A DNA stretch of 64,000 nt from Dehalococcoidia bacterium (GTDB taxonomy: Bacteria > Chloroflexota > Dehalococcoidia > SpSt-223), in contig JANWZD010000001.1 of assembly GCA_025054935.1 (NCBI GenBank), positions 124,001 through 188,000 of the forward strand. Direction: 5' to 3'. Shown here piece after piece: positions 51,943-55,696 of the stretch (positions within the stretch are counted from its first letter, which is position 1; each line of letters begins with the position of its first letter). The notes under the pieces are model-generated. The model saw only the letters and a list, made by a program, of their open reading frames with translations, was not told where the DNA came from and did no database searches. Position numbers and translations under genes: made by a program.

Positions 51943-53520
51943 TTACTTAATCTTGTAGACGGTATCGAGGTTGTAGACGTTCGGCGTGGGCAGTTCGACC
52001 CCTTTCACTTTCGGGGTGAAGACGACGAATTGCGAGCGGCTGACGGTGTAGATGACCGGCACGTCCTCCCGGAAGACGCGGTTCGCTTGGAGGAACAGCT
52101 GGCGCCGTTTGGCGACATCCGCTTCGGCATAGGCGAGGTCCATCAGCCGGTCCCATTCGGGGTTGCAGTAGAGCATCGCACGGCGGGGCGCGCCGACCGG
52201 CTTGTCGCAGCCGTAGAAGGTGCGAAGCCCGGTGAAGAAGCCGTTGTCTTCGCCGTTGCTGCCGCTCCACAAATCGCCCTTCGGGAGGTCCCGCCGGCCG
52301 TACGCCTTGTCAACAAAGACACTCTCCTCGTTCGGGATCAACTCCACCTCGACGCCGACCGCCCGCAAGTCGGCCTGAATGGCGACGAGCATGTTCTGCT
52401 CGCCCCGGCCCGTCGAGTAGTCAAGCCCGCCGGGCAGCCGGAAGCCATTCGGATAGCCGGCCTCCGCGAGCAGGCGCCGCGCCATCGCCACGTCGTAGGG
52501 GATCGGCTGCACCGTGGGGTCGAAATAGTCGGTGTCAGGCACGGCGACTTGACCCGTCGGCTGAGCGTAGCCGCCGTACAGCCCGCTCGCGATCGCCTCT
52601 TTGTTCACCGCGTAGTTAAGCGCAAGACGCACGCGCTTCTCTTTCAGCGGCGTGTCCCGCAGTTCCCATGAGCCCTGCGGCATCGCAATCTGCGCCGAGG
52701 AGTTGAGCTGGGCGGTGACGACGATGCCGCGCTGCTTCAGCTGGTTCGCCTGATCGCCGGAGAAACTGAACATCGCCATGTCGAGCTCGCCTTGGGTGAG
52801 CCCGTTGATCACCTGAACGGCTTCGGGGATCAGCCGGAAATGGATCTCATTGGCGATCGGCTTGCGGAACGCGTGCGGCTCCGCGCGCTTGCGGTAAATG
52901 ATCTGGTTCGCTTGCTGGAAAGAGACAAGCTCATACGGCCCGCTGCCCATCGGCTTCTGAACAAAAGCCTCAAACCCGATCGACTGGTAATACTTCTTCG
53001 GCAATATCCAGATGAAGGGCCCTCCGTTCGGGATCGCCGCGTTCGGCGCAGACAGCTTCAGTTCAACGGTGGTCGGGGTCGGATTGGTGACCGAGGTGAC
53101 ATTCAGCAGGTAAGACGTTTGGGGCCATCGGCGGTCGAGGATCTCTTGGATGCTGAAGACGACGTCTTCGGAAGTGAGGGGGTCGCCGTTGGCGAACTTC
53201 ATGTCGGAGCGGATCGTGAACGTCCACGTCAGCCCGTCGGGCGAGACACTCCACCGCTCGGCGACCCAAGGACGCACCTCGTACTTCGGGCCGAACGTCG
53301 TCAGATTGTCGTACAGCGGCCAGTATTGGAACAGGTTGGCCCGCGACGCTTGCGGCGTCGGGTTGCCGATCATCACGCCGACCGCCACCCGCAGGATCTG
53401 CTGCTCGTCCCGCTGCTCTGCCGGCGCTACGCCGCCCGTGGGCGTTGTCGGCGCCGCGGGCGCGCACGCGACGCTCAGAAGCATGATGAACGCGAAAAGC
53501 CGAGCGGCCGTTGCGCGCAT
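51943..53520 (-). CDS. family-5 ABC substrate-binding lipoprotein
   Basis: 525 residues. Lipobox LSVACAPA. LRVAVGVMIGNPTPQASRAN then PWVAERWSVSPDGLTWTFTI and SDMKFANGDPLTSEDVVFSI match the peptide/nickel-binding family. It stands without permease or ATPase genes, so it must use a transporter encoded elsewhere. ATG preceded by GGAGGG. The upstream promoter is the best match to sigma-70 in the window. Confidence 0.88.
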   Translation of the reverse strand: MRATAARLFAFIMLLSVACAPAAPTTPTGGVAPAEQRDEQQILRVAVGVMIGNPTPQASRANLFQYWPLYDNLTTFGPKYEVRPWVAERWSVSPDGLTWTFTIRSDMKFANGDPLTSEDVVFSIQEILDRRWPQTSYLLNVTSVTNPTPTTVELKLSAPNAAIPNGGPFIWILPKKYYQSIGFEAFVQKPMGSGPYELVSFQQANQIIYRKRAEPHAFRKPIANEIHFRLIPEAVQVINGLTQGELDMAMFSFSGDQANQLKQRGIVVTAQLNSSAQIAMPQGSWELRDTPLKEKRVRLALNYAVNKEAIASGLYGGYAQPTGQVAVPDTDYFDPTVQPIPYDVAMARRLLAEAGYPNGFRLPGGLDYSTGRGEQNMLVAIQADLRAVGVEVELIPNEESVFVDKAYGRRDLPKGDLWSGSNGEDNGFFTGLRTFYGCDKPVGAPRRAMLYCNPEWDRLMDLAYAEADVAKRRQLFLQANRVFREDVPVIYTVSRSQFVVFTPKVKGVELPTPNVYNLDTVYKIK

Positions 53521-53754: not shown

Positions 53755-54390
53755 TTAGGGCTCGTGCCAGTTCAGTTCGATCAGGTCTTCCTTGAGAATG
53801 GTCGTCAGTTCAAAGCCGCAGCGCTCGCACCAGCACGGCTCGCGCGCGAGGGGCGGCGGCAGGAGCGGGATCCCGCAGCGCGGGCAGTACCACGCGGCTG
53901 TTCCCCGCGGGCGAACGAGCGGAGCGGCGAGCGGGCGTGTCCGGGCGAGGAGACGGTTCAGTTCGGCAGTTGCGAAGATCGAGTATTCCATTCTCCCCGC
54001 GTCGCAGACCCAAATCGGCCGTCCTGCGCTCTCTGCTCCTCGAAGCGGCTGCCCGCAGCGCAGGCAGAAGACCGGCGAAGTGGCGGCTGGCGGGGTCGGG
54101 AACGGCGGGGAGGGGAGCGGCGGGCGCACGCCAGCAAACAGTCGTTGGCGCTCGGTGAAGCGAAACCACTCGCGGGCAATCCAAGCGCGCTCCCGGAGGC
54201 GGACAGGCGCGTAGTCATCGAGAGGAACCCCTTGCCGGAGCAGCGTCTGCCGGTGCGCCTCCTCATGCGGCACCCCGGCGTCGATCAGGCGGCGCTCAAT
54301 GAGGGTATGAGCGTACCACCGTCGCTGCTCAGCCGAGACCGGCTCAACATAGCGGTCAGGACGCAGTGACGGGTCGGGCTCACTAGTCAT
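53755..54390 (-). CDS. double zinc-ribbon protein, partner of TSCPD protein
   Basis: 211 residues. The N-terminal half is charged and helical (YVEPVSAEQRRWYAHTLIER). The C-terminal half has two cysteine clusters: CLRCG plus WVCDAG (incomplete), then CPRCG plus CWCERCG. Several prolines separate them. Ribbons like these bind zinc or act as redox thiols. Its ATG (54390) overlaps the TSCPD gene end by 8 bp, so the two are coupled; the cysteine pairs may serve the TSCPD protein in the way the C-terminal ribbon of NrdJ does (inference). Confidence 0.65.
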   Translation of the reverse strand: MTSEPDPSLRPDRYVEPVSAEQRRWYAHTLIERRLIDAGVPHEEAHRQTLLRQGVPLDDYAPVRLRERAWIAREWFRFTERQRLFAGVRPPLPSPPFPTPPAATSPVFCLRCGQPLRGAESAGRPIWVCDAGRMEYSIFATAELNRLLARTRPLAAPLVRPRGTAAWYCPRCGIPLLPPPLAREPCWCERCGFELTTILKEDLIELNWHEP

Positions 54391-54793
54391 GGGCGCCGCC
54401 TGCGTACTGGTCGAGATATTCCTCGAGCGCGAGCGCAACGGCGTCAGGGAGGGAGCGCACTTGGGCAGGGCCGACGCCCACCGAGCGGCTGCCTCCAATG
54501 CCCCGTAACTGGCGCGCCATTTCGCGCGCCCGCTCGTTCGGCGGCAGCGGGCTCGCCATCCGCAGGTTTAAGCTGACGAGGCGGCCAAGCGCTTCGGCAA
54601 GGGCAGCGATATCGCTGCCCGCCTTCCCCACGTTGATGAAGACTTCGTACAGTCCGTACTCGTCGCTGTTGAGGGTAACGTTGACCTTTCCTTCAGGCGC
54701 GACGATCTGGCGCGTGTAGCCCCGCACGACCTCAGGCCGCGGACGCACTCCCGAACTGTCAACAACATAGCCGAGCCGCTCGTCTGGGCGCAT
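54383..54793 (-). CDS. stand-alone TSCPD-domain protein
   Basis: 136 residues. EGKVNVTLNSDEYGLYEVFI then NVGKAGSDIAALAEALGRLV reproduces the TSCPD domain found at the C-terminus of class II B12-dependent ribonucleotide reductases (T-x-C-G..LYVTVN..G-x-FEVF...GKAGG). Here it is alone, and the usual Cys of the TSCPD signature is replaced by Val (KVNV). It may be a subunit or regulator of a ribonucleotide reductase or a nucleotide-binding protein. GAGGAGGGG lies upstream. It is divergent from a HAD gene. Confidence 0.8.
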   Translation of the reverse strand: MRPDERLGYVVDSSGVRPRPEVVRGYTRQIVAPEGKVNVTLNSDEYGLYEVFINVGKAGSDIAALAEALGRLVSLNLRMASPLPPNERAREMARQLRGIGGSRSVGVGPAQVRSLPDAVALALEEYLDQYAGGAHD

Positions 54794-54898: not shown

Positions 54899-55696
54899 AT
54901 GAGCGCCATCCGCGCGGTGACCTTCGACCTGTGGGAAACCCTCATCCACGATTCGCCAGCGCTGGGTAATGAGCGTTCTCAGCTGCGAGTAGTCCGCCTC
55001 ACCGAGGCCCTGCGCGCTCTTGAGCAGGCGATCGACGTCGCGGACGTCCAACGCGCCTACGACGCTTCGATGGCCGAGTACGACGCCGTCTGGCGCGATT
55101 ATCGCGATTTGTCGACCCGGCAGCAGCTGGAAATCCTCGCCGGCCTGATCGGCGAGCAGATCGCCGCTGCGCTCGATGAGGCTGGCTGGGAAGCAGTAGA
55201 ACGCGCCTATGTCGACCCGATCCATGAGCGGCCGCCCACGCTCAGTCCCCATGCGCTGCCTGTTCTCGACTGGCTGCGCGAGCGCGGCTATCGGCTCGGC
55301 CTCATCAGCAACACCGGTCGAACGCCGGGCACGGCGATGCGGCAGGTCCTCGCCGACTACGGCCTCCTCGACCGGTTCGATGTGACCATCTTCTCGAATG
55401 AAGAGGGACTGCTGAAGCCGCGGCGCGAACTGTTCGACCGCGCGGCCAGCCGTTTGGGGGTTCCGAATGAGGCGGTCGTTCACGTCGGCGACAACCCCGT
55501 CGCCGATGTGGCGGGGGCGAAAGCTGCCGGCATGCGCGCGATCCTCCTCGGGACGCTGCCCGCCGCCGTTGCGCCCGACGCCCGGATCGCGACCCTCGCA
55601 GAACTGCCCGCCCAGCTCGAACAATGGGGTGCTCCGCCAGCCAGCGCTGCGAGTCAGGAGGTGAGCTGGCGGAAGCGGCCTCCCTCGACGATGTAG
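54899..55696 (+). CDS. HAD-family hydrolase
   Basis: 265 residues. The usual motif I is replaced: AVTFDLWETLIH has the nucleophile Asp but Trp-Glu in place of the second D-x-T, so the second Asp of DxDxT is missing (some HADs such as haloacid dehalogenases also have D-x-Y). Motif II SNTGR, III KPRRELF and IV VHVGDNPVADVAGAK are present. May dephosphorylate a sugar or nucleotide. Starts at ATG 54899. Its end overlaps the converging binding protein gene by 43 bp. Confidence 0.8.
   Translation: MSAIRAVTFDLWETLIHDSPALGNERSQLRVVRLTEALRALEQAIDVADVQRAYDASMAEYDAVWRDYRDLSTRQQLEILAGLIGEQIAAALDEAGWEAVERAYVDPIHERPPTLSPHALPVLDWLRERGYRLGLISNTGRTPGTAMRQVLADYGLLDRFDVTIFSNEEGLLKPRRELFDRAASRLGVPNEAVVHVGDNPVADVAGAKAAGMRAILLGTLPAAVAPDARIATLAELPAQLEQWGAPPASAASQEVSWRKRPPSTM

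Follow-up and report, generated by a model that had tools for sequence, protein, structure and literature searches.

A cysteine-free copy of a ribonucleotide reductase C-terminal domain, encoded with a zinc-ribbon protein, points to a possible helper or brake in the making of DNA precursors and not to a split enzyme

The window, that is the whole stretch of DNA analysed here, comprises 64,000 nucleotides of a 649-kb contig from a Dehalococcoidia genome of 3.57 Mb that is 96.8% complete. Two overlapping genes of the minus strand, one coding for a TSCPD protein and the other for a zinc-ribbon protein, are flanked by genes for a solute-binding protein and a divergently oriented hydrolase. The features of the locus are the following:

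51943..53520, minus strand, flanking gene coding for a family-5 solute-binding protein (PF00496, 3.5e-69), found nearby in 3/3 genus members by synteny
53755..54390, minus strand, gene coding for an orphan zinc-ribbon protein of 211 aa with 8 cysteines and two ribbon-like motifs, one three-cysteine and one four-cysteine
54383..54390, minus strand, stop/start overlap of 8 bp between the TSCPD and zinc-ribbon genes, ATGACTAG
54383..54793, minus strand, gene coding for a free-standing TSCPD (IscU-like) protein of 136 aa with no cysteine (PF12637, E=3.3e-14)
54449..54451, minus strand, codon for Leu115, which occupies the cysteine position of the TSCPD motif (here SLPD) in a 92-domain alignment
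54899..55696, plus strand, divergent flanking gene coding for a HAD-like hydrolase (PF00702, 1.4e-24), a neighbour in 3/3 genus members by synteny

The initial annotation described a lone TSCPD protein overlapping a zinc-ribbon protein by 8 bp, and we located both genes on the minus strand as it had described. The overlap measures 11 bp in a sister species, as read from the alignment. Since their ends overlap, the two genes are probably translationally coupled. Neither of the tested neighbours, the solute-binding protein and the HAD hydrolase, belongs to nucleotide metabolism.

The lone TSCPD protein consists mainly of one TSCPD domain, which scored 53.4 bits against PF12637, above the curated cut-off of 22.8. 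Its best NCBIfam match was NF006417 (B12-dependent ribonucleotide reductase), of which it covers positions 594-704 out of 759 (4.6e-25); the score lies under the whole-protein cut-off of NF006417, as would be expected of a fragment. A single PHROGs match below 0.001 was obtained, to a 199-position reductase family (4e-6), and a search by sequence for a solved structure returned none that was credible. TIGR03905 is a TSCPD-related family named for four cysteines and described by a 78-position profile, which we take to consist of free-standing proteins. The lone TSCPD resembles this family in being a small TSCPD-type protein but contains no cysteine, and the TIGR03905 profile matched none of the three genomes of the genus.

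A profile search of the organism's own genome detected two TSCPD domains, the lone one and another inside a complete class II reductase, NrdJ. This NrdJ of 1180 aa comprises an all-alpha domain, the barrel, an intein, the TSCPD domain and a C-terminal ribbon ending in CGYTEC, and its gene is placed downstream of nrdR. The first of the two readings proposed in the initial annotation, a split C-terminal module of NrdJ, was to be checked by seeing whether the nrdJ of the genome lacks its own TSCPD and ribbon; the complete enzyme has both and the lone copy is cysteine-free, which argues against this reading. A search with the barrel revealed a second class II reductase, a short NrdJ of 598 aa encoded beside rtcB, which has no TSCPD and whose C-terminus reads GECRHCPN. 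No NrdR-box-like site was found above shuffled expectation in five upstream stretches, including those of the gene pair and of nrdR itself, and because the stretch upstream of nrdR was equally blank, this result is uninformative on co-regulation. The intein of the complete NrdJ (L003, 5400-8942) has a LAGLIDADG-like domain and lies at the NPCGE motif; the NrdJs of the two relatives within the genus have no intein. In this species and the sister species alike, the short reductase gene immediately follows rtcB (L152, 4591-7950; L153, 6390-10051; rtcB was tested against Pfam in L152 only), and an archease-like gene, judged by eye, precedes rtcB in the sister species.

Kinship with the C-terminus of NrdJ, as initially proposed, proved to be strong. 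The lone TSCPD and the TSCPD domain of the genome's NrdJ agree at 101 of 115 residues, including a run of 51 identical residues. At the DNA level the identity is 77%, and 44 of 104 identical residues use different codons. In a tree of 92 domains, which is based on few columns and whose bootstrap had not settled, the lone copies of this genome (G000) and of the sister species (G002) cluster together (99/74), and these two copies form with the NrdJ domains of G000, G002 and the third genus member (G001) a clade supported at 100/99 that has no other members; the three NrdJ domains themselves cluster weakly (82/65). This grouping with the NrdJ domains of the genus assigns the duplication to the genus, and the lone TSCPD very likely, judging from its sequence, arose inside the genus by duplication of the corresponding domain of the class II reductase. 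Between G000 and G002, the dN/dS ratio calculated by the Nei-Gojobori method is 0.088 for the lone TSCPD, compared with 0.101 in the TSCPD domain of NrdJ, 0.065 over the full length of that enzyme and 0.152 in the zinc-ribbon protein, all of these being rough values given a dS of about 1.0-1.3. The lone TSCPD is under strong purifying selection, and as both frames are conserved in the second species at the ratios given, neither the TSCPD nor the zinc-ribbon frame is a product of chance.

The canonical cysteine of the TSCPD motif was initially reported to be replaced by valine. The 92-domain alignment places Leu115 at this position, and the intact NrdJ of the same genome also has a leucine there. 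Only 45 of the 92 domains have cysteine in this column, so that in practice the residue is no criterion for belonging to the family. Cysteine occurs in 45, 49, 50 and 45 of the 92 domains at the four commonest cysteine columns, where the lone TSCPD has E, D, G and L, respectively, and the host NrdJ has the same residues; apart from the motif column, all five remaining cysteine-rich columns likewise hold residues other than cysteine in both proteins. Altogether, the lone TSCPD protein has zero cysteines. The lone copy of the sister species, which is also devoid of the EGC cysteine, keeps the ribbon (CPSC...CGAC) and ends in HHDD, and the NrdJ of that species ends in CGYSEC. By position relative to the published C-terminal region, from which zinc and redox cysteines were assigned, this copy retains the four zinc-type cysteines and is missing the terminal redox pair. 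Neither lone copy is expected to carry out dithiol exchange. Since one copy has no cysteine and the other no redox pair, the lone TSCPD is not an electron-relay subunit of the known type.

The AlphaFold model of the lone TSCPD, built with 8 sequences, reached a pLDDT of 83. When the model was compared with known structures, 26 of the 50 matches listed were IscU, SufU or NifU proteins by title. The best IscU-type match had a middling Z of 6.0 (rmsd 3.4, 93 aligned residues, approximately 10% identity), and unrelated flavoenzyme domains score alike. Foldseek alone against the PDB returned unrelated proteins with a best E of 0.04, and IscU/SufU surfaced only in the VIA second look. The resemblance predicted by the model agrees with the IscU-like domain of class II C-termini described in PMC9669993. 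There, the domain is itself a prediction whose role was unreported at the time of writing, and its dimerisation is suggested as the cause of higher oligomers. According to PMC5704485, tetramers induced by dATP and higher oligomers require the C-terminal region as a whole, which also carries electron transfer, and this transfer can take place between subunits. The model of the lone TSCPD bears some resemblance to IscU/SufU iron-sulfur scaffolds (a Z of at most 6.0 with 93 residues aligned), but the protein differs from them by the low identity of about 10% and by missing metal-binding cysteines. Having no cysteine, it could not hold a cluster in the manner of these scaffolds.

The zinc-ribbon protein matched no Pfam or NCBIfam family above cut-off and no PDB sequence at E 0.1, and its structure model (pLDDT 50) was too poor for use. 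Homologues were found in 3 of 41 relatives, all within the genus, and Cys109, 112, 129, 169, 172, 188 and 191 are invariant in 3/3 homologues. A search of a phylum sample of 400 recovered the protein's own copy and two weak partial matches only. From these searches the protein looks like a genus-restricted orphan. This partner is distinct from the ribbon of NrdJ and was seen only in this genus.

The TSCPD/zinc-ribbon pair is present in two of the three genus members, this genome and that of the sister species (L040), and absent in the third (L041), in which the zinc-ribbon gene starts approximately 120-140 bp from the divergent HAD gene with no TSCPD found in between. The pairing thus either formed after G001 had split off or was lost there, and the lone TSCPD is dispensable in that species. 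Within the genus, the lone TSCPD rests on two species, one of whose genomes is 80% complete. Co-occurrence of the pair across genomes, initially suggested as a check, holds in the sister species and fails in the other. Two observations had been named that would count against the initial proposal: a complete NrdJ with its own TSCPD exists, whereas conservation of the pair is partial rather than lacking. In a search with P0002 (E<=1e-12) of 393 genomes of the class, TSCPD frames shorter than 300 aa were found only in G000, G002, G088 and G724. The 262-aa frame of G724 is probably a truncated NrdJ, since it lies where a 4.7-kb contig ends. A 144-aa frame in G032 is unconfirmed, the profile having put the sole match of that genome in a 768-aa frame. 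Frames at contig edges (L026, L054, L069/L112 and L078/L111) were set aside as cut NrdJs.

Taken with the published behaviour of the region, the C-terminal part of NrdJ divides into an IscU-like part, which is a candidate for oligomerisation, and a ribbon, which is a candidate for the redox function. The simplest view of a conserved, free and cysteine-free copy is that it partners NrdJ oligomers in trans. Being free and redox-dead, a copy of the presumed oligomerisation domain could join mixed NrdJ oligomers or cap them, and the activity of NrdJ, or electron transfer between its subunits, would thereby be tuned. The best explanation overall, which we favour tentatively, is that a duplicate of the NrdJ domain, redox-dead, acts in trans on NrdJ; more tentatively still, the lone TSCPD could through this action tune NrdJ activity or inter-subunit electron transfer. 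The second reading proposed in the initial annotation, a stand-alone regulator, is therefore the better of the two, but it is unproven. A cysteine-free copy kept under strong selection next to a zinc-ribbon gene, in a genome with a complete NrdJ, suggests a helper or brake in the supply of DNA building blocks and not a split enzyme. The zinc-ribbon partner may have a delivery or a regulatory role, or may simply share a transcript with the lone TSCPD.

We consider it rather unlikely that the lone TSCPD and the zinc-ribbon protein serve a process unrelated to ribonucleotide reduction, in which the NrdJ domain has been re-used as a binding scaffold. Such a process would be consistent with the overlapping genes being kept in two species, with tested flanking genes that lie outside nucleotide metabolism and with a zinc-ribbon gene devoid of TSCPD in the third species. 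However, a re-used domain is expected to drift, yet 51 consecutive residues are identical to those of the host NrdJ domain.

An arrangement comparable to NrdJa plus NrdJb, in which the lone TSCPD would be the trans C-terminal module of the short NrdJ and the CxxC tail of the short enzyme would provide the redox function, appears unlikely. Class II reductases whose C-terminal part is a chain of its own have been described (PMC4520616), and the short NrdJ spans positions 5-575 of the 759-position NrdJ model and the lone TSCPD positions 594-704, so that the two cover successive parts of one model. The short NrdJ is also present in both genomes that carry the pair, and the search found none in the remaining member of the genus, a co-occurrence based on 3 genomes. 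Nevertheless, it is from the long NrdJ that the lone domain is derived (101/115 identical), whereas the barrels of the short and long enzymes are 50-53% identical, and a terminal cysteine pair of their own was found in all eight tails of short-type NrdJs read (L152, L153, L156, L157, L158, L160, L161 and L163). Among the matches listed, 18 other genomes have a short NrdJ, defined in this comparison as a frame of up to 730 aa; 17 of them have one TSCPD hit (in a frame of at least 752 aa) and one has none, and a lone TSCPD was found in 0/18. As for a duplicate with little or no function heading for decay, the absence from this genome's copy of a ribbon that the sister copy has, and the absence of the gene from the third species, would fit, but a frame intact in both species at a dS near 1.1, with a rough dN/dS of 0.088, makes this highly improbable.

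The lone TSCPD can be compared with the known systems closest to it. It is homologous to the C-terminal region of dimeric class II NrdJ (IscU-like/TSCPD plus zinc finger; CRD) and its model agrees, at the middling level of the structural match, with the IscU-like fold published for that region (PMC9669993), but it is free-standing, cysteine-free and without a ribbon, and the ribbon of the sister copy has no redox pair. It also recalls NrdJb of the split NrdJa and NrdJb of Pseudomonas aeruginosa, in which the C-terminal part of NrdJ is encoded separately (PMC4520616). NrdJb, described as IscU-like plus zinc finger in PMC9669993, completes an NrdJa lacking the C-terminal part and performs dithiol exchange (PMC4520616). 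In contrast, the main NrdJ is complete here, and the short NrdJ, which does lack the C-terminal region, ends in its own CxxC. Furthermore, the terminal cysteines of dithiol exchange are found neither in the lone TSCPD, which has no cysteine, nor in the sister copy. On sequence grounds, the lone TSCPD is a real, selected and lineage-specific paralogue of the NrdJ C-terminus that does not pass as an NrdJb. A separately encoded C-terminal part of NrdJ was already known; a cysteine-free copy beside a complete NrdJ is a new variant. In such a natural, cysteine-free and free-standing copy, the part presumed to oligomerise stands apart from the redox part, so that what the domain does by itself can be tested directly.

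Free TSCPD genes also occur elsewhere in the class. We re-searched 38 genomes, selected since a number of them had given two hits or weak ones (as many of the 38 had), and found a free TSCPD ORF in six (G007, G065, G281, G088, G118 and G136), the free genes of other Dehalococcoidia being located at L110 5296-5682, L044 3940-4338, L107 1315-1689, L108 5090-5563, L109 5048-5533 and L113 1219-1620. Pfam identified as their neighbours a primase and an SSB in G065, a resolvase and UvrD in G088, a beta clamp in G118, and a D5_N primase-helicase and an integrase in G136; an SSB-like ORF lies near the free TSCPD in G007 and G281, by eye only. No Pfam family was found for the gene adjoining the TSCPD in G065 and G281, nor for one tested neighbour in G118. 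Several of these genes are probably on mobile elements. A 335-aa frame of G136 (L106), labelled free-standing in the tree, is a frame-shifted NrdJ and was excluded from the counts. On contig 30 of that genome (L138/L106), NrdJ is interrupted after the barrel and before the TSCPD and so lies in two frames, which probably reflects a frameshift introduced by assembly or sequencing.

Viral contigs searched with one free TSCPD protein yielded nine loci, eight of which have an ORF of 108-176 aa (the frame of L132 being the exception). Upstream of the TSCPD, at a distance of one or two genes, 8/9 loci have a nuclease-like gene, identified by eye except in L126 (PDDEXK_1, 2.4e-6); it is absent in L133. 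Six of these nine viral contigs were searched for a reductase barrel and none was found, which fits an action on a reductase encoded elsewhere, although the contigs may be fragments and this evidence is weak. Profile A2 detected seven loci on viral contigs, two of them free-standing (L120 and L121) and five in frames of 808-1003 aa. With L110 as query, viral contigs gave two loci, both 21-residue matches inside unrelated ORFs. Nine records were retrieved from INPHARED phages, all of them annotated reductases; the match in GBK1, the one inspected, lies inside a 2.6-kb reductase gene. A free-standing TSCPD regulator appeared in no title or abstract of the literature searched, which covered few subscription papers.

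Free TSCPD helpers may thus be recurrent, as free TSCPD genes are also found near replication or mobility genes of other Dehalococcoidia and in viral contigs. A broader proposal, which we regard as doubtful at present, is that free TSCPDs form a class, recurrent and hitherto undescribed, of regulators that act in trans on class II reductases: cells would duplicate their own NrdJ domain to obtain a redox-dead subunit for oligomerisation, and phages or mobile elements would carry versions beside a primase, SSB, clamp or PD-(D/E)XK nuclease, thereby retuning the host enzyme although they bring no reductase themselves. If the versions on phages and mobile elements act likewise, these elements would have a novel way of controlling the dNTP supply of their host.

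In the viral loci L121 (5001-7373) and L126-L131, the free TSCPD is 108-118 aa long, and in most of these loci a PD-(D/E)XK-type nuclease gene precedes it by 1-2 genes. An AAA ATPase gene follows downstream of the viral free TSCPDs in most loci (nuclease and ATPase were tested in L126 only), and L121 also has a dCMP-deaminase-type gene.
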